The notes beneath the pieces were generated by a model. The model worked only from the letters and a program-made list of their open reading frames with translations, searched no databases and was not told the origin of the DNA. Source: Micromonospora chersina (GTDB taxonomy: Bacteria > Actinomycetota > Actinomycetes > Mycobacteriales > Micromonosporaceae). From it: DNA of 64,000 bases. The translations under genes were made by a program, and so were the position numbers. The DNA is taken from contig NZ_FMIB01000002.1 in NCBI RefSeq assembly GCF_900091475.1, positions 2,418,001-2,482,000 on the forward strand. The letters run 5' to 3'. This document shows positions 2,510 through 29,234 of this stretch, in pieces (the stretch's first letter is position 1; every line of letters starts with the position of its first letter).

Positions 2510-3469
2510 CTAGGTGCGTGCACGTTCGGTGAGATCAGCGGCGTGGTTGTCGGTGGCTGCCGGTGGTGTCTGCGGACGTGGCGGCCAGTACCGGCGCACA
2601 GTGCGTTCCGAGCGTCCGATACGGGCCGCGATCTCGGCCGGATGCAGGTCGGGCTCCCGCCGGTGCCAGTAGGCAACCGCGGCAGCCGTGTCCGACGGCA
2701 CCAGCTCGTCGCCGTTCACCGCCGGCTCGCCGTTCGTGGTGCTGGCGGCGGGCGGCTGCTGCGCCCGCGCGTTGGCCACGTCGACCAGGTGGCGCCTCGG
2801 CCGGCGCTCACCGTCGCCGGCGTCATGTTGTGGGCGACGCTGCGGCGGGTCAGGGCACCGGACCGGATCGGCTGATGCGCTCGCGCCGGATGACGGGTCT
2901 GCAGTGCCCTCGTCTGGGCGGCCCGCTGATGGGGCGTGCGGCATGCGTGTGGTGGGCGCAGGGCTGGGTGTGGCGGCCACAGGAGGCTCGGGGTGCTGTT
3001 CGGGTTGTCCCGCGCGGATCCGGGCGGTGAGCTCGACGAGGCTGACGCTGGCGACGATGACCAGGCCGTCAACGGAGATGGGCAGCAGGTAGGCGGCCCC
3101 TGCGCCGATCTCGCCGTAGCGGGCGGCGACCCCGACGAGGTGCCAGTACGACACCCAGGTGGCGATGGCGGCGATAACGCTGGTGGCGGCCATGCGGATG
3201 ATGCCGAGGGAGCGGCGGTGGTGCGGGACGCGGGAGATCAGCTCGACGGTGAGCAGCAGCGCCAGCGGCGGCCACGCGGCGATGATCTGGCTGATCGGGT
3301 TCGGTCGGGCGTGCAGCACGTTCGCGGCGACCGATGCGGCGACCCCGAGGGTGAGGGTTGCCCGTACTGCCCATCGCAGCCGCTTCAGGTGCACGACAGC
3401 CACATCAGTGGCGGCCTCGCTTGTCGAGTTGTCCGCGGTACGGGTGGTGGGGCTGGTCAGCGGGCTCAC
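2510..3469 (-). CDS. DUF2637 membrane protein with C-terminal helix-turn-helix
   Basis: 319 residues. Four transmembrane helices (about residues 33-52, 62-80, 92-110 and 124-147) form a DUF2637 domain, a family frequent on actinomycete integrative and conjugative elements. A long disordered Pro/Ala-rich linker leads to a C-terminal helix-turn-helix (EIAARIGRSERTVRRYW) near residues 285-310. The GTG start overlaps the stop of the upstream LysM regulator in GTGA and has a GGGAG ribosome site, so the two are translationally coupled. The frame stays open far upstream, but the coupling and homology favour this start. A role in element maintenance or transfer is inferred from family context only. 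Confidence 0.8.
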   Translation of the reverse strand: MSPLTSPTTRTADNSTSEAATDVAVVHLKRLRWAVRATLTLGVAASVAANVLHARPNPISQIIAAWPPLALLLTVELISRVPHHRRSLGIIRMAATSVIAAIATWVSYWHLVGVAARYGEIGAGAAYLLPISVDGLVIVASVSLVELTARIRAGQPEQHPEPPVAATPSPAPTTRMPHAPSAGRPDEGTADPSSGASASADPVRCPDPPQRRPQHDAGDGERRPRRHLVDVANARAQQPPAASTTNGEPAVNGDELVPSDTAAAVAYWHRREPDLHPAEIAARIGRSERTVRRYWPPRPQTPPAATDNHAADLTERART

Positions 3470-6435
3470 GATCGTGCTCCCTGTGCTGCGGCCCGACCTT
3501 CTCGGCTGGCGGAGCGCAGATTGGTGATGAGCTGGTCGGCCAGTGTGAGCGTGTCGTCGCTGGGCTCGGCATCGATTTCGGCGAGCTGCCGTGTCACGGT
3601 TCGGCGTAGGGCCCGCACGCCGTCGATGTCGCCGAGGTGCGCGCGGGCGCGCATGGCCACCTGATACAGCTGCTCGGCGTAGGGGTGCTGGCCGATGGCG
3701 GCGTCGACGACGGCTAGCTGCTCGGCTGGTTGGCCGTCGAGTTCCTCGGTGAGGGCGACGGCCGCGTCGAGGGCTTGTTGCCGCACGGCTTCCCGGTGGG
3801 GCTCGATCCACTCGTAGTGGCAGCCGTCGGCGAGTGGTGCGCGGTAGGTGTCGACGGCGCGGCGCAGGGCCGCGACCCGTTCGGCTTTGTTGGTGGCGGT
3901 GTTGGCGGCGCGGAGGGCGGCGCGCATCCGCCACAGGTCCACGTCGAGGCGGTCGGGGTTGAGCTCGTAGCGGTGGCGGGGGTGGGTGAGGTAGGTGCCG
4001 GGTCCGCCGTGGTGGCGCAGGACGCTGCGCAGGTCGGAGACGTAGGTGTGGAGCCGGTGGGTGGCTTTGCTTGCGGGGGCGTCGGGCAGCAGGTCGTCGA
4101 GGATGGCCTCGGTGGTGGCGGTGCCGTCGCGTGCGGCCAGGTATACGAGCAGTTCGAGGGATTTGGCGCGCAGGCTGCGCTGCGGGTCCGCGTGGGCGAG
4201 GGCGGGAGCACCGAGCACGGTGACCGCGACCGTGGTGACGGTGCCGGTTTCGGGGGCTGGTGGGGTGGAGTTGGTCGCCGGCGTGCTGGTGGCGGGGGCT
4301 TGGTCGAGGGCGTCGCCGTGGCCCGTGTCGAGCGCCTGGATCTCGTGGTAAGCCCTCTGTTGGGGTGTGTCGGCCGGCATCGTTGCTAGCTGATGTTCGT
4401 GGGCCAGCGGTGTTCGCGGGTCGGGCTGTGCGCCTGTGCGATGTGCGGTGGGCGTGGGCTCGGTGGGGGCTGGGGAGGGGGCCTCGCCGGTGTGGGCCTC
4501 GGCCAGCACGGCGAGCAGATCGAGGGTCTCGGTGGGTTCGAGGACGGTGAGCCGGCCGATGTCGGCGCGGTGGGAGGCGTGGTCGGTGTCGGCGGGTGTG
4601 GTGGTGCCGTCTTCGCTGACGGTGACGGTGGTGCCGTCGGGCCAGGGGCCGAGGAGCACGCCGTGGATGTCCAGGCGTTGCCCTTGGGTGAGCAGGGCGG
4701 CGACGCGGGGGCGCTCGCTCCGGTCTGGGGGGTGGGTGAGGAGCATGACCGGTGGGAGGGGCTCTTCGTAGGGGTCCGCGCGTAGGTCGGCGACGGTGTT
4801 GGTCTCGTGTTGGTCGAGCAGTCGGGTGCGGTGCAGCGCCAGGGCTTCGAGGAGGTTCAGCGCGTCGTCGAGGGTGGGGGTGATTCTCAGCCGGGGTGTG
4901 CGGGGCACGGTGTCTGTGGTGGCGGCGAGCAGGGTCGCCGCAGTCGCTGCCGGTATCACGACGTGGGTGCGCGCGTGGGGATGTTCGTCGGTGTCGGTGG
5001 CGAGGGCGGCGGTGAGGAAGCCTCGGGCGGCGGCGTCTGCGCCGGGTCCGATCAGGCCCAGTCCGGCGGGCGGCCATATCGTCGGCGGCGCAGGCGCCGG
5101 CATGACCGGGTCGAGGCCGTGGCTGCTGCTGGTCAGCGTGGTGGTGTCGGGTGAGGCGGTGGCCGAAGGATCGTGTGACGTCGCTTGTCGACTGCTCGAG
5201 TTGGTCTTGCGCAGGGTGCTGGCGCCGTCGGGATCGCCGACTGCAGTGTCCGCCGGCTCGTTGTGTTGGCCCGTTTCGCCCGCGATGGCGGCGGGATGGC
5301 GCAGCGCGCGGCGGATCTGCCCAATCAGCCGGGGCAAGGGGGCGAGAGTTTGCGTTTCCCAGCGCGGCGTGGTGGAGGGGTTGCCCGCGGTGTAGCGGCG
5401 CTGCCGGTGCGCCCAGACGAGGGCGGCGGCGGTGGTGATGGCCAGGGCGAGGCCCAGGCTTAGCCAGCTGCCGCTGGGCAGCACCACGCCCCGGTCGGGG
5501 CTGCTGGGGCGGGGTCCACGGTCCGCGGTCGGTCCGGAGGTGGGCGTGCTCGTGGTGTTGTCTGCGCTGGCGCAGGTGCCGGCGGTGGTGGGTGTCGGCG
5601 CGTGGCTCGGCTCGATTGTGGGAATGGTTGCCGTGGGTGGGGCCGGGCGCGGTGTCGAGGGCGGCCGGGCGGTTGTCGGTGCGGGGGCCGGGGTGGCGAG
5701 GTCCGGCTCATCTGGGGTCGACGGTGGCGATTCGGGGCGGGGTCGGTGTTTGGTCGGTGGGGTGGCGTCGTCGGGCAGGGTGAGGGTCCAGCCGGGGTAG
5801 ATGACGTTCGGGTTGCGCAGGGTGCCGCCGGTGTGGGTGAAGTGGGTGCCGCGGTTGAGGGCGAAGATTTCGGGCCAGCGGTCGGGGTCGCCGAGCCGCT
5901 CAGCGGCGATCTTGGAGAGGGTGTCCCCTCGCCTGACGGTGTGGGCGGAGGTAGGGTCGGCCGCCATCAGAATCAGCTGTTGACTGCTGCTCACCTGGCG
6001 GGTTTCTGGGGCGGTGGTCGAAGCTTGCGGAGTCTGGGCGTCGCTGTCGTGCGTGGTTCCGGTGGCGGGGGCGGGGTGGGTGGGGGTGCCGGCGGTGGCG
6101 GTGGTGACGGCGGTGGCGCCGAGCAGTGCGGCGGTGAGGCCTTGGACGGGGCGGGGTAGGTGTAGTGCGGGCAGCCAGCGCAGGCGGCGAGCCAGCGTCG
6201 TGTAGGCGCGGGTCAGGACGGTGGTTGCCAGGAGCAGCCACAGCATCACGGCGCCTGCTTCGGCCAGGAGGATGACGAAGTCGGTCGTCAACGGTTGGTG
6301 AATCCACTGCCGGAGCGCCGCCGGCGACGGTAGCCGAGGATGCCACACCCCGCTTGCGACGAGGATCGCGGCAACGACAAGGGTGGACATGATGGACGTG
6401 GCGGCGGCCGCGGCGTTCGCTGCTCTGGACCTCAC
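3466..6435 (-). CDS. Transmembrane LysM-BTAD (SARP-type) regulator
   Basis: 989 residues. Two N-terminal transmembrane helices (about 16-32 and 53-75) and a hydrophobic stretch (97-116) precede a LysM peptidoglycan-binding domain (165-222: VRRGDTLSKIAAERLGD and NVIYPGWTLTLP). A Pro/Thr-rich spacer and a further helix (324-341) follow. The inner half has a degenerate NTPase-like domain (GLGLIGPGADAAARGFLTAA) and ends with an OmpR-like winged helix plus BTAD (about 735-985), as in SARP regulators. The predicted topology puts LysM outside and the DNA-binding part in the cytosol. It is paralogous to the upstream gene 6707-8818, which lacks LysM. The GTG start lies 13 bases after the last base of a GAGG motif. 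The TGTAAG direct repeats upstream may be its operator. Domain assignments are firm; signalling is inferred. Confidence 0.85.
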   Translation of the reverse strand: MRSRAANAAAAATSIMSTLVVAAILVASGVWHPRLPSPAALRQWIHQPLTTDFVILLAEAGAVMLWLLLATTVLTRAYTTLARRLRWLPALHLPRPVQGLTAALLGATAVTTATAGTPTHPAPATGTTHDSDAQTPQASTTAPETRQVSSSQQLILMAADPTSAHTVRRGDTLSKIAAERLGDPDRWPEIFALNRGTHFTHTGGTLRNPNVIYPGWTLTLPDDATPPTKHRPRPESPPSTPDEPDLATPAPAPTTARPPSTPRPAPPTATIPTIEPSHAPTPTTAGTCASADNTTSTPTSGPTADRGPRPSSPDRGVVLPSGSWLSLGLALAITTAAALVWAHRQRRYTAGNPSTTPRWETQTLAPLPRLIGQIRRALRHPAAIAGETGQHNEPADTAVGDPDGASTLRKTNSSSRQATSHDPSATASPDTTTLTSSSHGLDPVMPAPAPPTIWPPAGLGLIGPGADAAARGFLTAALATDTDEHPHARTHVVIPAATAATLLAATTDTVPRTPRLRITPTLDDALNLLEALALHRTRLLDQHETNTVADLRADPYEEPLPPVMLLTHPPDRSERPRVAALLTQGQRLDIHGVLLGPWPDGTTVTVSEDGTTTPADTDHASHRADIGRLTVLEPTETLDLLAVLAEAHTGEAPSPAPTEPTPTAHRTGAQPDPRTPLAHEHQLATMPADTPQQRAYHEIQALDTGHGDALDQAPATSTPATNSTPPAPETGTVTTVAVTVLGAPALAHADPQRSLRAKSLELLVYLAARDGTATTEAILDDLLPDAPASKATHRLHTYVSDLRSVLRHHGGPGTYLTHPRHRYELNPDRLDVDLWRMRAALRAANTATNKAERVAALRRAVDTYRAPLADGCHYEWIEPHREAVRQQALDAAVALTEELDGQPAEQLAVVDAAIGQHPYAEQLYQVAMRARAHLGDIDGVRALRRTVTRQLAEIDAEPSDDTLTLADQLITNLRSASREGRAAAQGARS

Positions 6436-6580
6436 CTGACCTCCTCGCGTCGCTGGCTGCCACGCCGCCGCTAGGCCGGATGCAGCGGCGAGCGCGCCGC
6501 GAACGAGGGCTGCGGATGGCGGTGGGCTGGGAATGATCTGACGCTATGGCCGTGGCATTGGCGGTGCACCCGGGCGACGG

Positions 6581-6616
6581 CTTACAGCGCCTTACAAAAC
6601 CTCACGCGCCCTTACA
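6581..6616 (-). promoter_or_regulatory. Phased direct repeats, candidate SARP operator
   Basis: On the minus strand TGTAAG occurs at three positions and CGTGAG at a fourth, all exactly 10 bases apart (plus-strand starts 6581, 6591, 6601, 6611). SARP regulators bind short direct repeats at helical-turn spacing. This array is about 150-180 bases upstream of the LysM-BTAD start, in the only sizeable gap of the module. The repeats are seen directly; the binding is inferred. Confidence 0.55.
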
Positions 6617-6706
6617 ACCGCAGGTCAACGAGTCACGGCCCCTGCAATCGGTCGCTTCCGCAACGGCCGGTTCGCGCTGCCGCGCTTCGACGTTCGGCGG
6701 GGTTGG

Positions 6707-8818
6707 CTAGTCGCCGGCGGAGGCGTTGCTGTGTTCGCGGGGCTGGCCGAGGGTGTCGCTGGGGTGCAGCCCGGCGATGCTGAGCCGGTGACGGTGAGCG
6801 TCGCGCAGCCGTTCTGCGGCGGCGTAGTCTCCCAGCGTGGTGAGGATGTCGATGGCCCGCTGGTGGAGGTTCTCGTTGTAGGGGTCGACGCGAATCCCGG
6901 CCTGCAGGAGTTCCACGGCGCGGCGGGGATCGTGTTGGGTCGACGCGGCGGCGGCGTAGGCGTCGAGGACGAGCCGGCGGGCGCCTTCCCGGGGCGGGTC
7001 GATCCACGGCCAGGTGTGGCCGGCGGCGAGGTCGCCGGTGTAGGCGTCGATCACGGCCTGCCACGCGCGGGCGGGGTCGGTGAGGGTGGTGGCGGCGTGG
7101 TGGGCGGCGGTGTGCAGCCGCCACAGGTCGACCTCAAGGTGCTCGCTGCGCAGGCGATAGCGGTCGTCGGTGTGGTCGATGATCGAGAGATCCGAGGCGG
7201 CGCGGATGGCGGCGCGTAGCACGCTGAGGGTGGTGTAGAGGCGGTTGGTGACGGTGTGGGCGGCCAGGCCGGGCCAGATTGCCTGCGCGAGTTGTGCGGT
7301 GGTGGCGCCGTGGCGGTGGACGGCGAGGAAGGTCAGGATCTGCACGGCGGCGCTGCGGCGGATGGTCACGGCCCGGCCGTCGATGAGCAGCGTGGGCTGG
7401 CCGAGGACCCGCAGCTCGACCGGCGGCTGCGCGGCAACGGGCGGGGTGGGCTGGGGCGTGCGGTCCTCGCCGGCTTGGCGGGGCATCCGGACCTCGGGCG
7501 GCTGCCGTCGCTGTTCGGGGAAGGCTGTGCGGGGGGCGGTGCCTGCGTGCGGTGTGTGGCTTGGTGTGGGCGGGGCGATGACGGTGAGCAGGTCCATCGC
7601 GGCGACCCGGTCCAGGACGCACAGCCGGGGCCCTGCCTGACCCGGCAGCCGCGCATTCACGGTCCGGCCGTGCTGGTCGACGCTCCACGTGGCGCCGAGC
7701 GGCCATGCGCCGAGGACGACCGCGGTTGCTCGGCCGGCGCCGAGCAGGGCTGCCAACCGGTCTGCGGCAGGCCCCGGCGGCGGCTCGGTGATCAGCACCA
7801 GCCGCGAAGCCTCCTCGTGTCTCGGCGGCGGCGGGCCAGCCGTGTCAGGTGTGGGCGACGCGAGGGAGTCGATCAGCTCAACGGCGTGGGCCGCGGTCTC
7901 GGTGACCCGGAGGGCGGGGATGCTGTCGCAGACTGCGGTGGCGGCCGGCGGAAGCAGCGTGGTCAGGGCGGACCGGGTGATGACCACGCGGATGGAGTCG
8001 GGCGGATCGCGCAACGCCGCAAGCAGCGCGGTGACCAGCACTCCCCTGGCGGCGTCGGCCGCGCCGCCGCCGGTGAAGGCGACGCCCGTCGGAGGTAACG
8101 CGGCGATTGACGGCGGCGCGGTAGCCCGGGTTTGCTCGTCGGGCGACCGTTCGCTGGACTCCTGGTCGGGGACGCCGACGGCTGCCTGGACGGCGGTGAC
8201 GGCCGCCGGCAGCGGCGCCAAGTCCAGGTCGTCGTGGTCCGGAGACTCCCGCAGGCCGGGCTGGTAGCTGCGTCGGCGCCTCAGCCACACAAGTGTGGCC
8301 GCGGCGGCCACCTGGTCGGCCGTTCCCTGAGGCAGCCAGCCGCCCGGGATGGTGACGCCCTCCCCCGCGTGGACGCCGGGTGCCGGGTGCGCGTCGACGG
8401 CGTCGTGGTGGAGTGTGCCGGCGGAGACAGCGATCGGCTGGAGGGGCGGGGCTGTCGCGGTGGTGTTGGCCGCGGCGGTCAGGGCGGCGGCGCCAGCCAT
8501 GCCGGTGGCGGTGGCTTGCAGGGGTGTCGGCAGCGGCAGGCGCCGCAGCCAGCGAGCGCCGGCACGCAGACGCCGTGCGGCGGTGACGATGACCGCGTAT
8601 GCAACGAGCAGCCAGAGCAGCCACGCGAAGACCGTCAGCCCGGCGGTCAGCGTCTGGGTGGTGAGGGGTTGCGCGACCCAGAGGCGGAGCTGCTGCAGGG
8701 TTGGCCAGCTGTGCAGCGGCGGGCCGACGAACCTCGCCAGCAGCCACGGCGGCATACCCAGAAGAAGCAGAGCGAAAGCGAGGGATGTGACCCTCCGCGG
8801 CCACCTCACCTCACCCAC
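6707..8818 (-). CDS. Membrane-anchored BTAD (SARP-type) regulator
   Basis: 703 residues, with the same plan as the LysM-BTAD paralogue downstream but without LysM. Hydrophobic helices lie at about 11-30, 58-80 and 100-120. A short external loop follows and then a helix near 168-180 ending in RRRR. The cytosolic part has the degenerate NTPase-like domain (GVAFTGGGAADAARGVLVTA) and a C-terminal winged helix with BTAD (about residues 470-690). The GTG at 8818 is used here; a second GTG three codons later has the better-spaced GGAGG. The gene lies 55 bases after the Hsp70-like gene, so both are probably in one operon. The target genes are unknown. Confidence 0.8.
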   Translation of the reverse strand: MGEVRWPRRVTSLAFALLLLGMPPWLLARFVGPPLHSWPTLQQLRLWVAQPLTTQTLTAGLTVFAWLLWLLVAYAVIVTAARRLRAGARWLRRLPLPTPLQATATGMAGAAALTAAANTTATAPPLQPIAVSAGTLHHDAVDAHPAPGVHAGEGVTIPGGWLPQGTADQVAAAATLVWLRRRRSYQPGLRESPDHDDLDLAPLPAAVTAVQAAVGVPDQESSERSPDEQTRATAPPSIAALPPTGVAFTGGGAADAARGVLVTALLAALRDPPDSIRVVITRSALTTLLPPAATAVCDSIPALRVTETAAHAVELIDSLASPTPDTAGPPPPRHEEASRLVLITEPPPGPAADRLAALLGAGRATAVVLGAWPLGATWSVDQHGRTVNARLPGQAGPRLCVLDRVAAMDLLTVIAPPTPSHTPHAGTAPRTAFPEQRRQPPEVRMPRQAGEDRTPQPTPPVAAQPPVELRVLGQPTLLIDGRAVTIRRSAAVQILTFLAVHRHGATTAQLAQAIWPGLAAHTVTNRLYTTLSVLRAAIRAASDLSIIDHTDDRYRLRSEHLEVDLWRLHTAAHHAATTLTDPARAWQAVIDAYTGDLAAGHTWPWIDPPREGARRLVLDAYAAAASTQHDPRRAVELLQAGIRVDPYNENLHQRAIDILTTLGDYAAAERLRDAHRHRLSIAGLHPSDTLGQPREHSNASAGD

Positions 8819-8873
8819 CTCCTGCAGGAGCTGACCTCTGCTGGGCGCGGTTGTCCCCGCCTCGGCCCGCCGC

Positions 8874-10712
8874 TCATCGAGCTGCGGGGCGAAGGAGGCG
8901 GGTCCACAGCTGGCGCAGCCACCATGCGGCCACGGCGATCGCGTAGATCGCCCCGAGGATTCCGGAGGCGGGCCAGCCGACCAGCGCGGCGGTGATGACG
9001 GCGAGGGGTGCGCCGAGGATCAGCCGCAGGATGGGCTGGGAGACGACGGCCATGACGGTTCCGACACCGAGGAGCAGGCCGCCGAGGCGGCTGGCGAGGT
9101 CGATCCACAGGACCATGTGGGGCCAGCGGTCCGCGGTCAGGGAGTACTGGATGAGCATCATCCCCAGCCCGGCGGTGACCACGGAGCCGGTCGGGAACGC
9201 GAGTAGCTGCGACCAGCCGCCTTGGGGGATGCGCCACTGTCGGGCGGCGACGAGGGCCATCACCGCGGCCGCGGCGACGATCGGGGCGATCGGCAGCAGC
9301 GCCCAGCGCAGGAATCCGCCGGCGGGGTCGCCGATGTAGAGGCTGCCGACGACGGCGTACATGCCGCTGACCGCGACGCCGAGGGACGCCGATGCCAGGA
9401 TGCCCGTGCCGGTCTGGGAGCCAGGGCTCACCGCTGGGTTGGTGCGGGCGGCGATCGTGGAGGCGAGGACGGTACCGGCGCTGAGGCTGGCGATCACCGC
9501 GAACACGGCGGCCACGGCCAGTTCACCCCAGTTCAGCAGCGCCCACTTGTAGAGGTAGCTCCCGTTCCATTCGGGAGTCAGCAGGAACTGGGAGAGCAGG
9601 CCGAGCGACATGAAGCCGGGTACCGCGATCGCGGCGGCCCGTCGCAGGGGCGGCACCGGCTCCTCCGCCGGTAGCCCTGCGGCCGCTGTGGCGTCAGCGG
9701 CGCCTGCGTCGGCGGCTCCCCGGACCGCTGCCGTTGCCGGGTCCGCCACCACGGTCGGGGTGACACCGACGGTCTCGGTGAGGACCTTCTCCAGCAGGTG
9801 CATCCGGGCGACACCGCCGACGCAGTAGACACCGGCAAGGTCGTTGACCGCGATCTCGGCGGCGGCGATCGCCTCGATCGCCAGCTGAGCGACGCGCTGC
9901 AGGACAGGATGAGCGGCTTGCTCGAGGAGGTCGGTGTTGAGCACCGCGGCCTCGCCCTGGGGCAGCGGCACCGTCACCGCGACACGGTCGGCCAGCGCGT
10001 GCTTCGCGGCGCCGACGCTGGCCAGCAGGGCCCACCGCTGCCCGTCGCCACCTGCCGGGCTGGTGTCGGCGAACATGGCGGTGAGGGCTTCGTCGATCGC
10101 TGTCCCACCCGCGCCGGCGTCGGCGAGGGTAGCAAGGACCTCGAACCCGGCCGGCCCGCGCCGCAGGACGCTGACCTCGGCGCCGGCACCGACGTCGCAC
10201 ACCACGATGTACGACCCCACCGGCAGCTGGACCCCGGTCGCCAGCAAGTGTCCGGCAACGGCCACGGGGGCTTCGATCAGGCGGGGTTGGGGCAGGCCCG
10301 CCCGGTGCGCGGCGTGGCGCATCCACGTCCGCCGCCGCGGCCCCCACCCGGCCGGCACCACCAGCCGCACGTCCTCCACCACCGACCCGACGGCCCGCTG
10401 CGCCTCGGCGGCGACCCGACGTAGCGTCGCGGCAACCAGATCCAAGGTGTCGACATCCGCGCCGGCAACGGCGAGCCGCTGCTCGGGCGACCGCCGTGGG
10501 GCCGGGACGAACCGCTGCGGATCCGCAGCGGCGGCCTGCCATGCCTGGTGGCCGGTCAGCACGTCCCCGTCCCCGCCGACCAGCACCGCACTCGGCAGGG
10601 CTGGTTCACCGTCAAACATCAGCGGCAGCCAGGCGCCGTCCGGCCACGCCAGCACCGCGGCTGTGCTGGCGATACCGCAGTCGATCGCCAGCCGCGCCTC
10701 CCCCGCTCGCAT
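8874..10712 (-). CDS. Hsp70-like ATPase domain fused to a multi-pass membrane domain
   Basis: 612 residues. The first ~340 form an actin/Hsp70-type nucleotide-binding domain: phosphate loop 1 LAIDCGIAS near the start, a phosphate-2-like DVGAGAEVSVL near residue 172, and a GVARM adenosine-type motif late in the domain. The peptide-binding domain of DnaK is missing. About seven transmembrane helices fill residues 350-612 instead. It heads the probable operon with the two membrane BTAD regulators. It may sense or remodel something at the membrane for them, but that is inference. ATG start, weak ribosome site. Confidence 0.75.
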   Translation of the reverse strand: MRAGEARLAIDCGIASTAAVLAWPDGAWLPLMFDGEPALPSAVLVGGDGDVLTGHQAWQAAAADPQRFVPAPRRSPEQRLAVAGADVDTLDLVAATLRRVAAEAQRAVGSVVEDVRLVVPAGWGPRRRTWMRHAAHRAGLPQPRLIEAPVAVAGHLLATGVQLPVGSYIVVCDVGAGAEVSVLRRGPAGFEVLATLADAGAGGTAIDEALTAMFADTSPAGGDGQRWALLASVGAAKHALADRVAVTVPLPQGEAAVLNTDLLEQAAHPVLQRVAQLAIEAIAAAEIAVNDLAGVYCVGGVARMHLLEKVLTETVGVTPTVVADPATAAVRGAADAGAADATAAAGLPAEEPVPPLRRAAAIAVPGFMSLGLLSQFLLTPEWNGSYLYKWALLNWGELAVAAVFAVIASLSAGTVLASTIAARTNPAVSPGSQTGTGILASASLGVAVSGMYAVVGSLYIGDPAGGFLRWALLPIAPIVAAAAVMALVAARQWRIPQGGWSQLLAFPTGSVVTAGLGMMLIQYSLTADRWPHMVLWIDLASRLGGLLLGVGTVMAVVSQPILRLILGAPLAVITAALVGWPASGILGAIYAIAVAAWWLRQLWTRLLRPAAR

Positions 10713-11113
10713 AGACCTCAGTCAAACATGACGATCACATTCACGTCACCCACGAATTACTCACAGACACGGACACCTTGCAGCCTGATGAGCAGGGTGA
10801 CGGGACGGACGACCGCTGAGTGACTCGCGTCGGGCAAGGCAAGGGCTGACAGTATCGGCTATGGCGTGTGATTGGGCACCCGGACTTGGCCGGATCCAGA
10901 GGGCTTCACTGAGCCGAAGAAGTCCTGGCCGGGCATCGGCGGGGCTGGCTCGTCGCGCCTGTCCGCTGGCTACCACCGGACATCCCTGCCGCTGATGAAC
11001 GCCATAGGCACGCCTGTACGACTGGGGCGGGCGGGAAGGCAGCTCCCAACCACCCACCTACCGCAACGGTTCGGCACCCATCCTGGAGTCGTCTGCCCCC
11101 GCCGGAGGCAGCT
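10713..11113. other. Intergenic region upstream of Hsp70-like gene
   Basis: About 400 bases with no convincing gene; short frames lack family features. It must hold the promoter of the Hsp70-like gene, and minus-strand GTGAG, GTGGG and GTGAA elements sit close to that start at irregular 11- and 9-base spacing. Confidence 0.4.
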
Positions 11114-13935: not shown

Positions 13936-14628
13936 TCACTTCGATGTAGGGACAGGGACCGTGGTGGCTGTCGGGACGGTAGGCGTGTAGGTGGCTGGCG
14001 CGACGGTTGGCGATGGGGCTGGCGCTGGGGCGTTGTGCACAACGCCCTTCCATAGCGCGGCCACACCAGCCGTCGCGCCGGCGAGGATGAGGCCGCCCAC
14101 GACTGTCACCACGATCTGAGCGAAGACACCTGTTGCGAATCCGATCTTGCTGAGGCCCGGATGATCCTCAGCCACGATCGATCGCACGCGGGCTGGAAGC
14201 GCCGCCATGGCGGCCAGCCTGCCCACGAAGGTCGGGTCAGTGGCCTCTGCCCTCTCGGCCTTCTCCTGAAGCGCGCCGATTATCAGGTCGCACGTGTTGA
14301 CCACCTGCTGGGGAGGCATGGCCTCTACATCACGGAGTGAATGGTCCCAGGATGTTATGGGGTCGATCGGCATCCCGACGTTCGGCACCACGAAGGTTCG
14401 CGAAATGCCGGACTGTATCTGTGCGCGCTTGGCTCTGCCAGCCAGTTGCGACGTCTTCTGAGACGCGGTTGCGGCCTCTGCCTTCTCTGTCTCCTTCGGC
14501 CGAAACGCCATCAGTGAGCCCGTCATGTACTCCCGGACAGGCTCCATGTGAGTCAAAACGGACTGGTACGCGTCGCGGAAGCTGGCGATGTCTTGCGCCA
14601 TCCGCCTGTAGTGCTCGCTTCGCTTCAT
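13936..14628 (-). CDS. Unknown protein with C-terminal transmembrane helix
   Basis: 230 residues. The mostly helical N-terminal part begins MKRSEHYRRMAQDIASFRDAY. One transmembrane helix (about residues 168-195) is followed by an external Pro/Thr-rich tail. The gene begins 6 bases after the stop of the upstream gene at 14635, so the two form an operon. No family is recognised. A membrane-tethered helical protein paired with a small winged-helix-like protein suggests a two-component unit, but that is speculation. Confidence 0.65.
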   Translation of the reverse strand: MKRSEHYRRMAQDIASFRDAYQSVLTHMEPVREYMTGSLMAFRPKETEKAEAATASQKTSQLAGRAKRAQIQSGISRTFVVPNVGMPIDPITSWDHSLRDVEAMPPQQVVNTCDLIIGALQEKAERAEATDPTFVGRLAAMAALPARVRSIVAEDHPGLSKIGFATGVFAQIVVTVVGGLILAGATAGVAALWKGVVHNAPAPAPSPTVAPATYTPTVPTATTVPVPTSK

Positions 14629-14634
14629 CCTTGC

Positions 14635-15084
14635 CTAGCTCGCTCCAACGCTCTTGGCCAGAGCCGTGCCCGCTACATCCACCGCGATGTCGCGCCCGGC
14701 CGACCCCAGCCAGTCTGCGGTCTTACGCAGCCATCCACGCTTCTCCGGGTCTGACTCCTGATCGGCCGCCTGCTCCATCGCTTGCACCAGTCGGTCCGCC
14801 AGAGTCTCGGAGGTAGGCCAGGTGCCAACTATCCGGCGGGCATGCCCACTGGGGTCGCGGATCAGGCACATGTCTCGTCCGTCGAAGTCGCTCGCGTCTT
14901 CATACTTGAAGAGCGGCGGGTGTTCGCCAGCGAGAGCGAACAAGGCGACCAAAGCGGTTTCCAGGTCCATGCCCACGCGCTTTGCAACATCTCGCGCGTC
15001 CATGTCCCTTGCGCCTTCGTCAGAGATCTCCACGATCGCACGCAGGACCGGGAGGTCTCGGCTCTCCCACGTGTCATTCGTCAT
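14635..15084 (-). CDS. Unknown protein with winged-helix-like N-terminus
   Basis: 149 residues from ATG 15084. The N-terminal half (LPVLRAIVEISDEGARDMDARDVAKRVGMD) looks like a small winged helix. The C-terminal part is a charged helix (DPEKRGWLRKTADWLG) followed by a hydrophobic, amphipathic tail that could touch membranes. This layout recurs in actinobacterial small proteins, but no function is known to me. First gene of the pair with 13936-14628. Confidence 0.65.
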   Translation of the reverse strand: MTNDTWESRDLPVLRAIVEISDEGARDMDARDVAKRVGMDLETALVALFALAGEHPPLFKYEDASDFDGRDMCLIRDPSGHARRIVGTWPTSETLADRLVQAMEQAADQESDPEKRGWLRKTADWLGSAGRDIAVDVAGTALAKSVGAS

Positions 15085-15216
15085 GGCCCGGACTGTAACC
15101 CAGGGGTACGACAGCGGCAGGTGCCCACTCACGGGCAGGCTCTGCGCATGCGAACCCCAGGTATCGGGGCCGTCTGCCTTCCGGTGGGCGGCGCGGCACC
15201 GTGGGTGGTGGGCGGG

Positions 15217-15945
15217 TCAGGCCCCGGTGATCGCCTTGACCACTTCTGCCGTGCTTGCGGCGGTCGAGGCAATAGCTTCCGCGCCCTGGGCGTGCTCGCT
15301 CAACTTGCCCCAGAGCCGGCCGAGCCATGAGCCAGCCTTGGCGCGCTCCTCGCTACCTGGCTTGGTGGCCCGCACCGCCGCGAACGTCAGTGCGTCCATG
15401 GCCTTTTCAACGTTGGCATACCCGCCGATGCGGACGCTGAGCAACGCTGCCTCCACGCCCCTCAGCCGGTCAACCAGAAGCTCCTTCAGGTCATCCGGAA
15501 GGTCACTGGCGACCACGTCATCGATGATCGCCCTGACGTCCTCCACGAGTTGCTTGGAGGAGTCATCCGAGATCAGGGGCTGGACGCGGCCGTTGCGCCG
15601 CAGTGCCCGCGCGCAGCTCGCAACGCTGTAGACCATTTCTCCCGTCACTTGGTCCACGAAGTGACTCATCTGGACGTTGCCGACATAGAGGAGTGCGTCA
15701 ACAACGTTGCGGATCTGGGGCAAGAAAGTCAGAAGGTGGTCCGGGTCCTCGTCTTCCGGCAGGGCACGCACTTCGGCCTCCACCTGATCGACCAGCCTCG
15801 CGAGGTCGGCTGCCTTCTGGAGTACACCAAGGCGGTCAGACACCTCGAAGATCTGCATCCAGACTTCGATGGCCGCCCTGCCGGGCTGTTGCCGCGCCTG
15901 CTCCAGCATCGCCGCCAGCCTGCTCGCGGAGTTGTCCGTCCCCAC
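15217..15945 (-). CDS. Helical protein of unknown function
   Basis: 242 residues, predicted mostly helical (EQARQQPGRAAIEVWMQIFEVSDRLG and later segments), with a C-terminal Ala-rich hydrophobic tail (AGSWLGRLWGKL then AIASTAASTAEVV). The tail resembles in style that of the small protein at 14635-15084, hinting at a shared membrane- or partner-contact mode. It lies 53 bases downstream of 15999-16715 on the same strand. No family is recognised. Confidence 0.65.
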   Translation of the reverse strand: MGTDNSASRLAAMLEQARQQPGRAAIEVWMQIFEVSDRLGVLQKAADLARLVDQVEAEVRALPEDEDPDHLLTFLPQIRNVVDALLYVGNVQMSHFVDQVTGEMVYSVASCARALRRNGRVQPLISDDSSKQLVEDVRAIIDDVVASDLPDDLKELLVDRLRGVEAALLSVRIGGYANVEKAMDALTFAAVRATKPGSEERAKAGSWLGRLWGKLSEHAQGAEAIASTAASTAEVVKAITGA

Positions 15946-15998
15946 GCCCGCACCTCTCGTTCAATCTCGCCCAGCGGAGTCTATGGCTGGCAGGCCGC

Positions 15999-16715
15999 CT
16001 ACTCCGCCTTCAGGATGTCCCCGTGCTCGTATCGGAGCTGCGTCAACAGCAGGCTCCCCAGGCCGAGCACGCCGAGGGCGTACCGCTTGGCGTCGTCCCG
16101 TGTCTGGATCCGGTGCCGGTCAACGTTGCTGAGCGCCTGGGCGAAGCCCATCCCGAGGTATCGCCAGCCCTCCCGCTCGCTCGCCTGCCGGCCAAGTCGG
16201 TAGTCGCTGGTCTCCCCGAACACCTCTAGGTAGAGGTTCTTCCCGACCAGGTTGTTGCCGTTCCGGTCCTGCGGGTTCCCCGCCCACGTCCGGACGTGGT
16301 TCTCGACGAAGATCGCGGTCTGGCTGGCGACCTTGCCCCACTCCCCGTCCTCCACCTCGGTCTTCACGTGTGCCCACAGCTCGGGGTCGTACGCGTGTTC
16401 ATCCATCGGCTCGTCCCCGCCCAAGAGACCGAGCTCCCACAGGGCCGCGTCGACGAGCTCACACGCCTTGCCGACGCCTGCTTGGCGGGCTTGATTGGAA
16501 GCGGAGGCAGGCGTACTTGCAGTGACGAGACCAAGTCGATATCTGATTTTGTCGAAACGCTGTACCAGATCGTTGTCGGCTCCAAGCGAGCGAACGAAGA
16601 TAGCTCGAACTTGGGCCTTCCAGGTTTCGAAGCCCGCAGGGCGGGCGAAGAAGGCCGCCTGAGAGGCATCCTCTTTCAGCCTGTTCAGCTCGGCGATCGC
16701 AACAGCGGGGCGCAT
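15999..16715 (-). CDS. TIGR02391-like protein (Ymh family)
   Basis: 238 residues from ATG 16715 (an alternative start lies 7 codons upstream). The C-terminal half carries a pattern typical of TIGR02391/Ymh proteins: LVGKNLYLEVFG, then a Gly-rich helix GWRYLGMGFAQALSNVDRHR and a closing helical repeat. Such proteins occur in defence and accessory regions; their activity is not established. It is probably co-transcribed with 15217-15945. The TIGR02391 assignment is from pattern only. Confidence 0.55.
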   Translation of the reverse strand: MRPAVAIAELNRLKEDASQAAFFARPAGFETWKAQVRAIFVRSLGADNDLVQRFDKIRYRLGLVTASTPASASNQARQAGVGKACELVDAALWELGLLGGDEPMDEHAYDPELWAHVKTEVEDGEWGKVASQTAIFVENHVRTWAGNPQDRNGNNLVGKNLYLEVFGETSDYRLGRQASEREGWRYLGMGFAQALSNVDRHRIQTRDDAKRYALGVLGLGSLLLTQLRYEHGDILKAE

Positions 16716-16865
16716 GGACGCGAGTCTACGGGCCACCGGCGACAGGCTCGCTTTCCTTGCTCGCTATCGGCAGGCGCGACTACCGCGCGGTCACCTAAAG
16801 TGGTCGGCCCCGTACACAGTGCAGCCACAACGGACGGGGCCTTGGCCGGGAAGGAGCCCCGGCCC

Positions 16866-20520: not shown

Positions 20521-22581
20521 ATGCGACTCTTCGTATCTGCGTCGACACGAGAGGTGACTACATTGCCTGAGGTTCACCTTACCGTCGGAGAATCCAAGAT
20601 CAAACAATTTCTCAACAAGAAGCCTCTGGAGACGATCGAAGAATTAATCTGGAACGGCTTAGACGCAGACGCGCGGACGATAAATATTGAACTTGAGCGC
20701 AATCCGGCCGGCGCACTCGCTGGGATTGTGATTACCGATGACGGGCATGGTTTCTCCTTCGACGAGGCTAACGAGTACTTCCCTGAATACGGCGACACGT
20801 GGAAGAAAAAGATTCGGGCCTCAAGGACGCGAAATAGGATCTTGCATGGCCGGAATGGGGAGGGGAGGCTCTTCGCGCTGTCGCTCGGACCCGATCCGAC
20901 ATGGGAGTCGGTCGCTGCCGCTGGCGACGGTCGAGTCAGGACGCGAGTTCGGGGCAATAGCCTTCGGCCGCTTGTATGGAACATTGATCTCATGGACCCA
21001 GCGGGTGGCAGCCCCGGCACTCAATTCCGAGTACGCATACCTGATGAGCGGCGTCTGCGCAGCCTTGAGCCCGAGTCGGCGGTTCCTCGCCTCACCGCAA
21101 GGCTTAGCTTCTATCTTCTAGCGTATCCAGAAGTGACCATCACTTACGATGGGTTTACGTTGGATCCGCGTGATGTGATAGAACAAGAGGTTGATCTAGC
21201 CCTCGAATTGCCGCCAGAATACACTAACGATCCGAACCCCCCAAAGGTCAGATTCGTAGAGTGGAAAGAGAGAGTTGCTGACCAAAAGCTGCTGATTTGC
21301 AACGGTCGAGGCGAGGGCCTTCTCGACTACGGCTCTCCCTATTCGTACTCAATCCTCTCGTTTACGCCATACCTTATTGCTGAGCGATTCAACGATCTCA
21401 GTCAGAGGGAAGTTCATATGATCCCGATGGTCGATGCTTCGTTGCTTCATTCGGCCATTCTTGCAGTGCGGCGTCACGTCACCCAGCGGCAGCGAGAGAT
21501 ATCAAGCAACGTGGTTAGCCAACTGCAAGACGAAGGAATCTATCCGTACGACGGCAAGGACCTCAGCGAGACAGAGGAAGCCGAGCGGCAGACATTCGAT
21601 CTTGTGGTGACGGTCGCGAGATCCGCGCTGGCAAATAAGCTTGTTCCGCGAAAGTTCCAAGTTGAGCTACTTCGGGCCGCGCTCGAAAACGACCCCTCGG
21701 ACCTTCACGAGATTCTTGACAACGTACTCGCACTCTCTGATGAAGAGCGGGCCGACCTTACGCAACTTATTAAAGACACACATCTAGCCCACGTCATTTC
21801 CTCGGCCAAGACGGTGGTTGATCGACTCAACTTTATATCCGCCTTGCGTAACGTTTTTGCAGACACCGACAAGCGTAACGCGCTGAGAGAAATTGATCAG
21901 CTGCATCCAATGATCGCTAGCAATCTGTGGCTATTCGGGGAGGAGTGGAACTTCTCCCAGACCGAACAGGGTCTGACGTCGGTTTTGGCGCAACATCTCT
22001 CGCGGCTAGGCCAGGAGGTGACGCTTGAGAACCGTCTTCAGAGCGTGAAGCGCGATGACGGTCGCAGCGGGCGAGTTGACATTGTCATGTTCCGAGGTAT
22101 CGGAGACGAGCACCATACGCAGCGTCTAGTGATCGAACTGAAGCGACCAAGTTTGCGGGTGGGATCCGAAGAACTCGAACAGGTCAAATCCTATGCTCGG
22201 GCAATTGTGCGAGACCCCCAGTATAAGCACGGCGCGGGCAAGTGGAAGTTTATCCTCGTCACATACGACATCGCCCCGGAGATCGAATACGATATTAAAC
22301 AGGAAGATCGAGAGCCTGGACACGCGGACAAGCAGCGGGATTATGACCTGTGGGTTCTCACTTGGGGGCAAATCTTCGATGATGCCGAACGGAAGCTGCG
22401 CTTCTTCCAGAGGCGCCTTAACTATGAAGCGACAGAAGAACGTGCCCACGGCAGTCTAGCCAAGCTGACAGAGGAATACGGCATTGGCCTCACACGGACG
22501 CGGAGTCGACAGGCGGCTAGCGGAAACACGAATGGAGTTGTGCCAGGTCAGGCTCGCAGGGTCGACACGGCGATCGACTGA
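20521..22581 (+). CDS. GHKL ATPase fused to PD-(D/E)XK nuclease
   Basis: 686 residues. The N-terminus is a GHKL (gyrase/Hsp90/MutL) ATPase: N-box EELIWNGLDADA (Glu41, Asn45), G1 DDGHGF (73-78) and G2 GRNGEGR (110-116). The C-terminus has a restriction-endonuclease fold: VDIVM (Asp520), then LVIELKRPS (Glu539-x-Lys541) and a QVKSYA helix. The middle is helical. MORC/MutL-like GHKL proteins linked to nucleases are known from restriction-type loci, so phage or DNA defence is the best guess. ATG 20521 has AAGG upstream; a TTG at 20563 with GAGAGG is an alternative. Codon use is visibly AT-richer than in neighbours, a sign of transfer. Domains are firm; biological role is inferred. Confidence 0.85.
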   Translation: MRLFVSASTREVTTLPEVHLTVGESKIKQFLNKKPLETIEELIWNGLDADARTINIELERNPAGALAGIVITDDGHGFSFDEANEYFPEYGDTWKKKIRASRTRNRILHGRNGEGRLFALSLGPDPTWESVAAAGDGRVRTRVRGNSLRPLVWNIDLMDPAGGSPGTQFRVRIPDERRLRSLEPESAVPRLTARLSFYLLAYPEVTITYDGFTLDPRDVIEQEVDLALELPPEYTNDPNPPKVRFVEWKERVADQKLLICNGRGEGLLDYGSPYSYSILSFTPYLIAERFNDLSQREVHMIPMVDASLLHSAILAVRRHVTQRQREISSNVVSQLQDEGIYPYDGKDLSETEEAERQTFDLVVTVARSALANKLVPRKFQVELLRAALENDPSDLHEILDNVLALSDEERADLTQLIKDTHLAHVISSAKTVVDRLNFISALRNVFADTDKRNALREIDQLHPMIASNLWLFGEEWNFSQTEQGLTSVLAQHLSRLGQEVTLENRLQSVKRDDGRSGRVDIVMFRGIGDEHHTQRLVIELKRPSLRVGSEELEQVKSYARAIVRDPQYKHGAGKWKFILVTYDIAPEIEYDIKQEDREPGHADKQRDYDLWVLTWGQIFDDAERKLRFFQRRLNYEATEERAHGSLAKLTEEYGIGLTRTRSRQAASGNTNGVVPGQARRVDTAID

Positions 22582-24980: not shown

Positions 24981-27900
24981 TCAGTGACGCATGTTGACCC
25001 GGATGCCTCCGAACAACACTGGGCCAAACGAACTGACCCGGCCACGGCGCTTGAGTTCATTGAGCAGCTCATCGGTCCCGTCCCGTTCCTTCAACTTCGG
25101 ACGGTGCCGACCGACCCTGGTGAGCGGTTCGTACTCGTCGCCGAGCGCCAGGAGAATCTGGTCCAAGGCCGGCAGCCCGATGTCAGAGAGGTGGGGTATC
25201 AACAGATTCAGGATGTGCTCTGCGGGCGCTCCTGCTTCGCTGAGGTTGACCAGCAGCTCCACCGAAACGTCGTTGCCCTTGGCCGCCCACTCGCAGATCG
25301 CGATCGCGCCCTGCCGGGACAACCGACCGTATACGTATTCTGCGTCCTCGGCGATCGCGCGCTTAACGGCCGGTGCCACCCGTGGACTTCGCATCACCTT
25401 GGGCAGGTCGTCGCTCGATAGCATCAGCTCGCACACGTAGGACGCCAGGCCTTTCGACGCCGCGAAGTACTCCTCGCGGAGCGCGAACGGGCAACCGCCC
25501 ACCCGCGCATATGTCTCCGCAGCATCGGGTACCAGTTCGGCGTCCAGCAGCGCCGGGATCAGCTTCAGCCCGGCCTCGGTCAGGAGTTCGGGATTCAACC
25601 GGCCTGGGAGCTCGAGCTGCTTCACCAGCCGGACCCTCGCCACCGGGTCCAGGTCCTCGGCATTAGCCAGCGCATACCCGAGGTCGTACCGGGACTCCTC
25701 CTCCACCTCCTCGACCTCGGTGAGGTCGAGCCTGTTCAGGTTCTCCACCAGCTCCTCGCTGACACCGAACTTCCCTACAAACTGGCATACGTTCCAGACA
25801 GTCGGCGCAAACCGGCCCGCCGACACCACCGCGATCCACGCCGCATCGTCGAGCTCCTCCAAATCGGCCACCGTGCACGACGCCGATGCGCCCTCGGCAA
25901 CCGGCAGCACCGCCGATTCGGCGGCGTTGGCGACGTCGTTCAACACCGCGACGAACTCTTCCGAGGCATCGACTGTCACCTCCTTCTCCTCGCGGACTTG
26001 GAGGTAGCTGTCCAGGTTCCCGAGGATGTGGTCGTAGACGTCTGCGTTGGTCGCCCTCACCGCGTCAAGGGCTAGCGCGGTGCCTTCACCGAGCGCTGCG
26101 GACAGGTTCGCCCGAGTGACGGGGTACAGGCGAGCCTTGATCACTGCCTCGCGCTGTGCGTCGCCCAGCACGGCCAGGTCGCCGACCTGCGCGCCGAGAC
26201 GACGAACCAGGACGGCCACGTCAGCAGCAGCCTTCGGCGTCTCCACAGGCCCGACAAACGCTTGCATCCGGGCGTAATGCTCCGAGACGAAGTCTGCCAC
26301 CCGCTGCGAGGATTCGTAGTCGACGTCTCGGTCAGCGCTTCTGACAGCGGCATCGACGAGCGCAACGGCCGCCGCGAGGTCGATGGGGGCCTTCTCGACC
26401 AGATGGACGAACGCATGCTTCCAGCGAGGAACCAACTGGTTCACGAAGAGCTTCCTGGACGCGCCGTCCAGAAGGTACGCATCGATGAAGGATGAGTCGG
26501 TCCCGGCCCGCATGAGGAGCTTGTCGAGCGCCTTGTCCAGCCGGTCAGGACGCGTGGACAGGTAATGATCGAAAACCGCGAGGTTGAAGACGCTCTCGCC
26601 GTCGAGGAAGCGAGCGCCCATCTCCTTCTCAACTGCGTCAATGGAGGCAGCTTCGTCGAACCGGAAGCGGTGGTCTGCGCGATCGGCCTGGACGCAGTGG
26701 AGGATGAAGTTCATCGCGCTGACGCTGATGGCGATGCCGTGGTAGTCCGAGCAGTACAGCGTGAAGTTCTCGTCGATGTGGCCCCTGGCGAGGAGGTCGT
26801 GGGCCAAGGGCGACACGAGGTCGGCGACGATGCTATCCAGGTTGCGTTCGACGCCGCTGTCGGTGGGCATGACCAGGTCCGTCCTGGCCATGAGCTGCGC
26901 CATCGTCGCTTTCGCGACGAAGTCCTTGGTCTCGAGCGCGGTCCGGGAGGCGTGCTGGAGACGTGCGACATCAGCATCGATGGCGTCATCCAACGCAGCC
27001 GCCTCATCGCCGACCAGCGCGATCACGTCATCGAACGACAGGGTGACTCCACCGTATCCGGGTTGGATGAGATGCACGTCATCGCGGGTCTCGTGCAGCG
27101 ACCTCCAAAGGTCGCTGGACGTTAGTTCCGAGAGCGCGTAGTTCGCCGACTGGTACTGGAGGACCGGCACGCCACCGCGCCGCCCGGCCCGGTGAACAAT
27201 GGGCAACACCTTCTGGAGTCGTTCGCCGGCGGCTTTCGCGTGCTTGTCCCACGCCCTGTTCGACGCGATCCGGTCTAGTGCCTCCTTGCTGACCGCTGCC
27301 TGGTGGCTTGTCTGATACTTGACCAGGTCGCGGAAAGCCTGATGGGCCTCATCGATCTTGCTCGTGCCAAGCCGGATGGCCTCGAAGTCCTCGAGGTGCA
27401 GGTTCTTGTAGACCATCATCGCGAACAGTCGGTCCGCAGTGAGGCCCTTGAGGCCCTTCTCTCCTAGGACCGAAGCACGGTAGATCTCGAACTCATTGCG
27501 GATGTTGCGAATCAGGCGCATGTCGGTCAGATGCGTGCCCACCAGATTCACTAGCGCAGTCGAAGGTTGCTCGTCAGATGCGGCGAACTCCGCCGTCAAC
27601 AGGTCCCGCGCCGAACGGTGCGTGATGAACGGAACCATCGGGACAACCAGGTCGAAGAACTTCGTTCTGTTCGCCGACGGAGCGGATTCCAGAGCTGACG
27701 CACGAGCCGATGCCGCATCGGTATCGGCGTCCGCGTCGCCGTCCGGGGCGGCCTCGATGTTGAGTTGCTCGAAGATGCTGTCACGGACCGCATACACGAA
27801 TCGAACCGGCCGCGACTTGATCTGTTCGGAGTTGTTCAAGACGGTGTTCAGTTCACGTAGCGTTTCGAAGATGTGAGGGTCCCTGAAACGGTCTAGGTCC

Positions 27901-29140: not shown

Positions 29141-29162
29141 CGCTACCTGCAGATATTCACGG

Positions 29163-29234
29163 TGGGCGATACTGGGATCGAACCAGTGACCTCTTCGGTG
29201 TGAACGAAGCGCTCTCCCGCTGAGCTAATCGCCC
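29163..29234 (-). tRNA. tRNA-Val(CAC)
   Basis: The minus strand reads GGGCGATTAGCTCAGC at the 5' end, an anticodon arm CTTCG-TTCACAC-CGAAG with anticodon CAC, and a T-arm ACTGGTTCGATCCCAGT closing on ATCGCCC plus discriminator A. All stems pair. CCA is not fully encoded (CCG follows). Its 3' end faces the accessory island, the usual integration site of actinomycete elements. Confidence 0.97.

Follow-up and report, generated by a model that had tools for sequence, protein, structure and literature searches.

A protein with both a LysM and a BTAD domain, PAGK_2369, is listed under the label TadB in the Tad locus of the Cutibacterium acnes plasmid pIMPLE (Table 2, excerpt of PMC3666418), and plasmids of this sort show signatures of conjugation, and a pilin-like protein of theirs has been detected (excerpt of PMC5696575, in which LysM goes unmentioned). 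In the literature searched, which covered few subscription papers, the excerpted table is the only place that names a LysM, BTAD protein of a Tad locus, and no functional account of such a protein was found. LysM and BTAD appear as separate domains of extracellular contractile injection systems (eCIS; excerpt of PMC8213781); a further candidate source, PMC12075869, was rejected, 'BTAD' in its excerpt being a journal code. Here, we analyze a gene set of Micromonospora chersina (genome of 6.68 Mb) in a stretch of 64,000 nucleotides of contig NZ_FMIB01000002.1 (positions 2,418,001 to 2,482,000; hereafter, the window), which encodes a membrane-anchored LysM protein with a C-terminal SARP domain (LysM-BTAD), a LysM-less paralogue (BTAD2), an Hsp70-type membrane ATPase (Hsp70-TM), and a DUF2637 protein.

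In the Micromonospora loci examined, these regulators stand beside a Tad pilus machine or beside Hsp70-TM, never both, and this exclusive partnership suggests that a switch links gene control to the cell surface. We regard it as an evenly balanced proposition that LysM-BTAD serves conjugative islands as a one-component SARP switch anchored in the wall, its exchangeable partners being the Tad pilus and the Hsp70-TM/BTAD2 pair.

Gene set and partner exchange

The four genes lie on the minus strand at 2510-10712 of the window and are transcribed in the order Hsp70-TM, BTAD2, LysM-BTAD, DUF2637 protein, with gaps of 55 bp upstream of BTAD2 and 271 bp upstream of LysM-BTAD:

10720-10750, minus strand: conserved element of 31 bp, 7 bp ahead of the Hsp70-TM start, whose 11-bp direct-repeat spacing resembles that of SARP boxes
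8874-10712, minus strand: Hsp70-TM, an Hsp70-type ATPase domain (about residues 4-345) followed by seven or eight membrane helices (356-607)
6707-8818, minus strand: BTAD2, two clear N-terminal membrane helices, a middle domain, and a C-terminal winged helix-turn-helix (wHTH) plus BTAD (from hydropathy and similarity to LysM-BTAD)
3466-6435, minus strand: LysM-BTAD, three membrane helices, LysM, a fourth helix, an FtsK-like middle domain, and a SARP domain
5773-5943, minus strand: LysM domain of LysM-BTAD (residues 165-221; Pfam 3.9e-5, PDB profile matches to LysM proteins, e.g., Kbp)
5407-5469, minus strand: fourth membrane helix of LysM-BTAD, at about residues 323-343, with positive charge after it
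4483-5073, minus strand: middle domain of LysM-BTAD (about residues 455-651), FtsK/TcpA/EccC-like fold with a degenerate P-loop (GPGAxAAAR)
3481-4239, minus strand: SARP domain of LysM-BTAD (wHTH plus BTAD; residues 733-985)
about 2510-3400, minus strand: DUF2637 membrane protein whose C-terminus has an HTH-like stretch (PF10935, 1.1e-9; start codon position approximate)

Protein searches returned 375 homologues of LysM-BTAD and 325 of Hsp70-TM. The named hosts among the best 120 of the 375 are Micromonospora save one Catenuloplanes, the nearest named relative of the window's LysM-BTAD being that of Micromonospora chaiyaphumensis (93%); the membrane half of Hsp70-TM, used as a single-sequence query, had matches in 6 genomes among 150 of the order, and these 6 are all from the same genus. 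The genus was sampled with 61 Micromonospora genomes, of which profile A1 matched 54 at E values up to 0.001, many matches being short or LysM-only. When a LysM-BTAD gene was required to match in its N-terminal part as well as at its SARP end, 47 such genes were obtained among the matches listed, in 29 genomes, and partners were called within up to 20 kb around 45 genes, with Tad scored from at least two of CpaF, TadB, and TadC. These 45 loci initially comprised 18 with close Hsp70-TM and BTAD2, 12 with Tad, seven with a distant Hsp70-TM, one with BTAD2 alone, and seven with none; a DUF2637 gene was present in 27 of them. One locus (L081), in which Hsp70-TM (75%) and BTAD2 lie about 17 kb from LysM-BTAD on the same contig, was then counted with the Hsp70-TM and BTAD2 group, and the window and L088, both of that group, were added.

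The final 47 LysM-BTAD loci thus divide into 21 with Hsp70-TM and BTAD2, 12 with Tad, seven with distant Hsp70-TM, one with BTAD2 only (at a contig edge), and six with no partner found, and a Tad operon together with Hsp70-TM was found in none of the 47. Five of the partnerless loci lie on contigs of 5.8 to 38.5 kb; the sixth (in genome G026) showed no partner in 60 kb more sequence, yet has all four of the transfer genes described below. A Fisher value of 4.4e-6 from the 45-locus counts assumes independent loci, which they are not, and is given no weight. Co-occurrence across genomes, which a sequence-only reading of the window by a model had put forward as a check on its own proposal, was observed. 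That these genes are chance neighbors on a genomic island, without any functional link, would fit the unrelated defense-like genes on the same island, but the recurrence of Hsp70-TM and BTAD2 with LysM-BTAD in 21 of 47 loci over wide sequence distances makes this hardly credible.

The exchange of partners was followed on a LysM-BTAD tree of 54 rows, 44 of them labelled, which was built by a quick method with support from the SH-like approximate likelihood ratio test (SH-aLRT) only, and drew a warning of long branches, which include the plasmid rows. It omits L036 and L053 (duplicates of L021 and L024) as well as L022, L052, and L074 (no intact frame with both ends), and L081 is among the ten rows without a partner label. 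Changes between Tad and Hsp number at least six with a two-state label and seven with a three-state label, and starred branches force five for Tad. Both partner kinds occur within separate clades: L058 (Tad) groups with L024 (Hsp), L069 (Tad) with L054, L055, L067, and L088 (Hsp), and L062 and L063 (Tad) with distant-Hsp rows. Element-type CpaF, defined by 50% identity or more to CpaF of L048, is present in 14 copies in the 61 genomes, 12 of them beside a LysM-BTAD and, in a listing read by eye, none near an Hsp70-type LysM-BTAD; the exception G005:C184 comes from a fragmented genome with a partial gene. Another copy, at G003:C17:53262-54311, lies about 18 kb from a Replic_Relax gene, with no LysM-BTAD in the list.

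No Tad operon (CpaF/TadA, TadB, TadC) was found near the window: own-genome T2SSE matches lie on contig C1 and on C2 at 3.85, 4.01, and 4.11 Mb, and none near 2.42 Mb. Contig C1 (11,981 bases) holds two CpaF-like copies in opposite orientation, with a PF00437 score equal to that of the chromosomal Tad copy C2:4012113; the pair may be a repeat or an assembly artefact.

The distant type of Hsp70-TM, 27-34% identical, was seen in L025, L057, L059, L060, L061, L075, L078, and L082, where it adjoins LysM-BTAD on the opposite strand; L025 has one extra copy on the same strand.

Protein architecture and topology

The sequence-only reading had named this gene set, and all four members were confirmed in the window. 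Its two paralogous, membrane-anchored BTAD regulators also stand, BTAD2 being a LysM-less paralogue of LysM-BTAD by similarity (Pfam BTAD 21.3 bits, slightly below the cut-off), with helices given by hydropathy. An Hsp70-type ATPase with about seven helices in place of the substrate-binding domain was likewise borne out: the Hsp70 profile match ends at 370 of 599, the structure model has long helices from residue 356, and neither shows a substrate-binding domain, while the ATPase domain has the actin-like Hsp70 fold and several nucleotide motifs. The DUF2637 protein was said to end in a helix-turn-helix; the family assignment holds, but the HTH-like stretch stays under the cut-off (HTH_23, 0.004). 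For LysM-BTAD, hydropathy and charge over 52 rows predict four helices with LysM outside and the SARP domain inside, and so place the two on opposite sides of the membrane, in agreement with that reading.

The SARP domain of LysM-BTAD consists of an OmpR-type winged helix followed by BTAD, the layout that marks SARP regulators (OmpR-type DNA-binding domain plus BTAD), and it has an AfsR/EmbR-like fold, with a structure match to AfsR from its transcription complex. Contact residues of AfsR include P79, T88, S91, and R94 (excerpt of PMC10936776), which by our own reading of the common VSxLR motif correspond to P787, T797, S800, and R803 of LysM-BTAD; these are invariant in all 14 rows of alignment A1 and, across the 45 rows of A2, vary little or not at all. 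The middle domain has, in the structure match of one predicted model, an FtsK/EccC/TcpA motor-ATPase fold of the RecA-like FtsK type. A Walker A GK[ST] is not present in it, the rows printed having GPGAxAAAR or GxGAxAAAR-like sequences instead, and the domain has probably lost ATP binding.

A conserved promoter element

The sequence of the 31-bp element in the window is GGTGACGTGAATGTGATCGTCATGTTTGACT (10720-10750, minus strand). Among 20 distinct loci with a close Hsp70-TM, 18 carry the element 6-7 bp ahead of the Hsp70-TM start, and L035 and L056 have diverged forms; the count leaves out L038, L039, L047, and L053, where sequence upstream of the start is missing (L053 duplicates L024, which is counted). 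In the upstream regions printed, only near copies appear to resemble one another farther than about 60-70 bp from the start. A weight matrix found no other site above 8 bits in the loci scanned; since it was trained on 15 of the same element sites, its recovery of these proves nothing, and only the lack of others informs. In the host genome, the 29-base core has a single site at up to three mismatches, the one before Hsp70-TM.

None of the eight distant Hsp70-TM starts shown, from seven loci, is preceded by the element, and the same loci yielded no BTAD2; the element is present in L073, which has BTAD2 and no LysM-BTAD within its 20 kb. These two observations point to BTAD2 as the cognate regulator. 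Most of the seven distant starts shown have TTGAC and ACTGCC just upstream of the ATG in place of the 31-bp box.

SARP boxes consist of direct repeats at an 11-bp spacing, with 8 bp between the 3' repeat and the -10 (excerpt of PMC10936776). The best self-match of the element lies at an 11-bp shift (11 of 22 positions; as high in 163 of 20,000 shuffles; noticed post hoc), and a GACTGA hexamer, a possible -10, stands 8 bp after the second repeat, a fit also noticed after the fact. The element may be a SARP box, which one or other of the two regulators would bind.

Island context

The genes lie on a conjugation-type genomic island whose capacity for transfer is putative. Genes in the first 24 kb of the window mostly have a third-position GC of 0.72-0.88, and most genes beyond 30 kb have 0.9 or more. 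Four transfer genes lie upstream of the window (L018-L019). They encode a TraC/VirB4-like and a TrwB-like ATPase, a Replic_Relax protein, and an NlpC/P60 protein, and two of them group with genes of the Streptomyces plasmid transfer region; all four are found at 77-97% identity near LysM-BTAD of two other genomes (L085, L089). A Replic_Relax gene lies within 70 kb of 29 of 47 LysM-BTAD genes, against a rough expectation of 4% (75 Replic_Relax rows from genomes with LysM-BTAD, four partial genes set aside and some weak rows omitted), and 13 of the 18 genes without one are on contigs under 80 kb.

This setting bears on whether LysM-BTAD is instead a general wall-stress sensor, with LysM reading the state of peptidoglycan and the SARP domain activating host genes, e.g., for secondary metabolism, unrelated to conjugation. 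The predicted topology would suit such a role, and SARPs are known to activate antibiotic genes (excerpt of PMC10936776), but the genes occur on islands with conjugation genes, elsewhere with Tad pili, and the sole close genomic copy of the box precedes the operon itself; we find this explanation quite improbable.

Other features of the window include a 1230-residue YobI-like P-loop nucleoside triphosphatase (24981-28673, minus strand; PF20693 2.9e-108, PADLOC Tmn 2e-44) by tRNA-Val (29161-29234), likely a defense protein at the island edge. A protein of 686 residues (20521-22581, plus strand; third-position GC 0.61) has a GHKL ATPase domain, a sub-threshold HSDR_N_2 stretch, and a weak PADLOC REase_II match. 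Four small genes stand in a row at 13936-16736 (minus strand), one of them matching Hypoth_Ymh (2e-18) and, weakly, PADLOC PDC-S35, while the other three have no Pfam family. The tRNA-Val was considered as an attachment site and rejected, no 16-base repeat of its region being found in the window and the 60 kb upstream.

Relation to Tad loci

On four Streptomyces plasmids (L009-L012), a LysM protein is encoded 3' of SAF, CpaF, two T2SSF, and TadE/TadG, with a replication-relaxation gene upstream of all. Among the three of these loci scanned, Pfam BTAD was found in the LysM proteins of L009 and L012, not of L010; it is also present in the Micromonospora Tad-type L048. It was not found in the LysM proteins of Tad loci L028, L029, L031, and L033, although, judged by similarity to the window's LysM-BTAD, the L028 protein does have a SARP part. 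The host's chromosomal Tad locus (L064 5224-12695) ends with a gene (L064:11631-12695) for a 354-residue protein of helices-LysM-helix layout that stops just past the last helix, and corresponds to the membrane half of LysM-BTAD without the regulator. Since Tad loci on plasmids contain LysM proteins and this host protein lacks a regulator, the membrane-LysM half looks like a Tad-locus component onto which elements would have joined a cytoplasmic regulator.

LysM proteins are common wall anchors. Together with the 354-residue protein, this would accord with LysM-BTAD being mainly a structural anchor of the pilus or transfer machine, its SARP part serving protein-protein contacts and not transcription. 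Conservation of the wHTH contact positions, the match to AfsR from its transcription complex, and the SARP-box-like element conserved in the set argue against this role, which we judge very unlikely.

Proposed mechanism and its weighing

As a wall-anchored switch, LysM-BTAD would be held in the membrane and hold peptidoglycan or wall-linked material through its outside LysM domain, with the SARP activator domain inside, tied to the membrane part through the FtsK-like domain. The slot filled in other islands and Streptomyces plasmids by a Tad operon, with LysM-BTAD as its last gene, would be filled here by Hsp70-TM and BTAD2. A change at the surface, whether in the pilus or transfer apparatus, by contact, or by remodelling of the wall, might alter the state of LysM-BTAD, of an ATP-binding Hsp70-TM, or of both; the tethered SARP domains, thereby freed or ordered, could bind direct-repeat boxes, the one of 31 bp before Hsp70-TM among them, and switch on the cassette and perhaps transfer genes. 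Wall binding, the signal, any ATP cycle, and the target genes are thus candidate steps. More tentatively, and with considerable doubt, we propose that an Hsp70-derived membrane ATPase and a tethered SARP replaced the Tad pilus as surface input to a wall-anchored SARP regulator on conjugative islands, so that pilus-coupled, contact-reading one-component transcription factors would be served by two interchangeable modules (pilus or Hsp70) through a relay made of an FtsK-derived dead ATPase.

Several observations weigh against these proposals. AfsR W74, R92, and K95 are not conserved in LysM-BTAD (same VSxLR-based reading). The FtsK-like fold comes from a model with a whole-model pLDDT (predicted local distance difference test) of 66, the domain being mostly above 80 with dips near 68, and Pfam FtsK_SpoIIIE is absent from the matches at E values up to 0.1. 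When 52 middle domains were compared by hhalign with eight own-genome FtsK-family proteins and nine controls, the top three were FtsK-family (29.6, 27.7, and 27.2) at probabilities of 6% or less, one control reached 23.9, and the true FtsK (L091) scored 16.0, inside the control range; this is not counted as support. In Hsp70-TM the DnaK stretch GGGTFDVS is replaced by GAGAEVSV, which makes ATP hydrolysis doubtful. The 11-bp repeat is a post hoc observation, Pfam BTAD was absent from Tad-locus LysM proteins of Catellatospora, Propioniciclava, Brooklawnia, and one Acidimicrobiales bin, and five LysM-BTAD genes (G017:C5, G033:C12, G033:C18, G044 at 143 kb, and one G053 copy at 923 kb), all on contigs at least 100 kb long, have no Replic_Relax within 70 kb. 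BTAD2 and LysM-BTAD are about 5 to 10 kb apart in L024, L038, L039, and L047 and about 17 kb apart on the G057 contig of L081/L102, and they diverge in L072, so that they do not form one operon everywhere; L073 has, within its 20 kb, Hsp70-TM and BTAD2 without LysM-BTAD.

These wide gaps, the divergent arrangement in L072, the pair standing alone in L073, and a box that tracks Hsp70-TM rather than LysM-BTAD would also be expected if Hsp70-TM and BTAD2 were a separate, self-contained regulated system recombining into the place of the Tad operon, the exclusion reflecting a shared slot and not function. We hold this to be unlikely: the order Hsp70-TM, BTAD2, LysM-BTAD stays tight in many loci with proteins down to about 45-60% identical, BTAD2 is itself a LysM-BTAD paralogue, and distant Hsp70-TM without BTAD2 also stands beside LysM-BTAD in 7 of 47 loci. 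The wall-anchored switch with exchangeable partners would address when conjugative elements of Gram-positive bacteria transfer and how a cell learns of pilus or wall contact, and a protein running from peptidoglycan to promoter, if true, would answer this directly. The repeated exchange of a Tad operon for an Hsp70-type membrane ATPase beside the same regulator amounts to a natural experiment on the regulator's input, and the single conserved promoter box makes testing easy.

Comparison with known systems

Regulators of the ToxR/CadC type carry an outside sensor and an inside winged-helix DNA-binding domain on one polypeptide. LysM-BTAD resembles them in having sensor and DNA-binding domain predicted on opposite membrane sides, and differs in its reversed order, with the SARP domain C-terminal, in having four helices and not one, and in its LysM outside and SARP activator inside. 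The ToxR likeness drawn in the sequence-only reading thus holds for the opposite placement of the domains, not for the N-terminal cytoplasmic wHTH, single helix, and C-terminal outside domain; its idea of cell-wall sensing is partly supported and fits better into a wall-anchored SARP switch, carried by conjugation-type islands, whose Tad and Hsp70 partners are exchangeable.

EmbR has no membrane part, its SARP domain is at the N end, and its partner domains are others. In LysM-BTAD, unlike AfsR and EmbR, the SARP domain is C-terminal, behind four helices and the FtsK-like domain, and AfsR too differs in lacking a membrane part and in having an N-terminal SARP domain and other partner domains (excerpt of PMC10936776). 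Hsp70-TM shares the ATPase fold and several nucleotide motifs with DnaK/Hsp70, but has membrane helices, no substrate-binding domain, and no Thr of the GGGTFD stretch. The middle domain of LysM-BTAD shares the fold of FtsK/EccC/TcpA, whereas the Walker A lysine and a Pfam match are absent. Membrane one-component regulators, SARPs, and Tad-locus LysM proteins are kinds already known, and the parts seen here are individually unusual. The closest likeness is to the plasmid LysM-BTAD proteins of Tad loci (PAGK_2369, known from its row in the excerpted table only, and Streptomyces L009-L012), which also combine LysM and a SARP-type C-terminus in one large protein; their gene closes, or nearly closes, a Tad operon that adjoins transfer genes, whereas in the window no Tad genes are nearby and the slot is held by Hsp70-TM and BTAD2.

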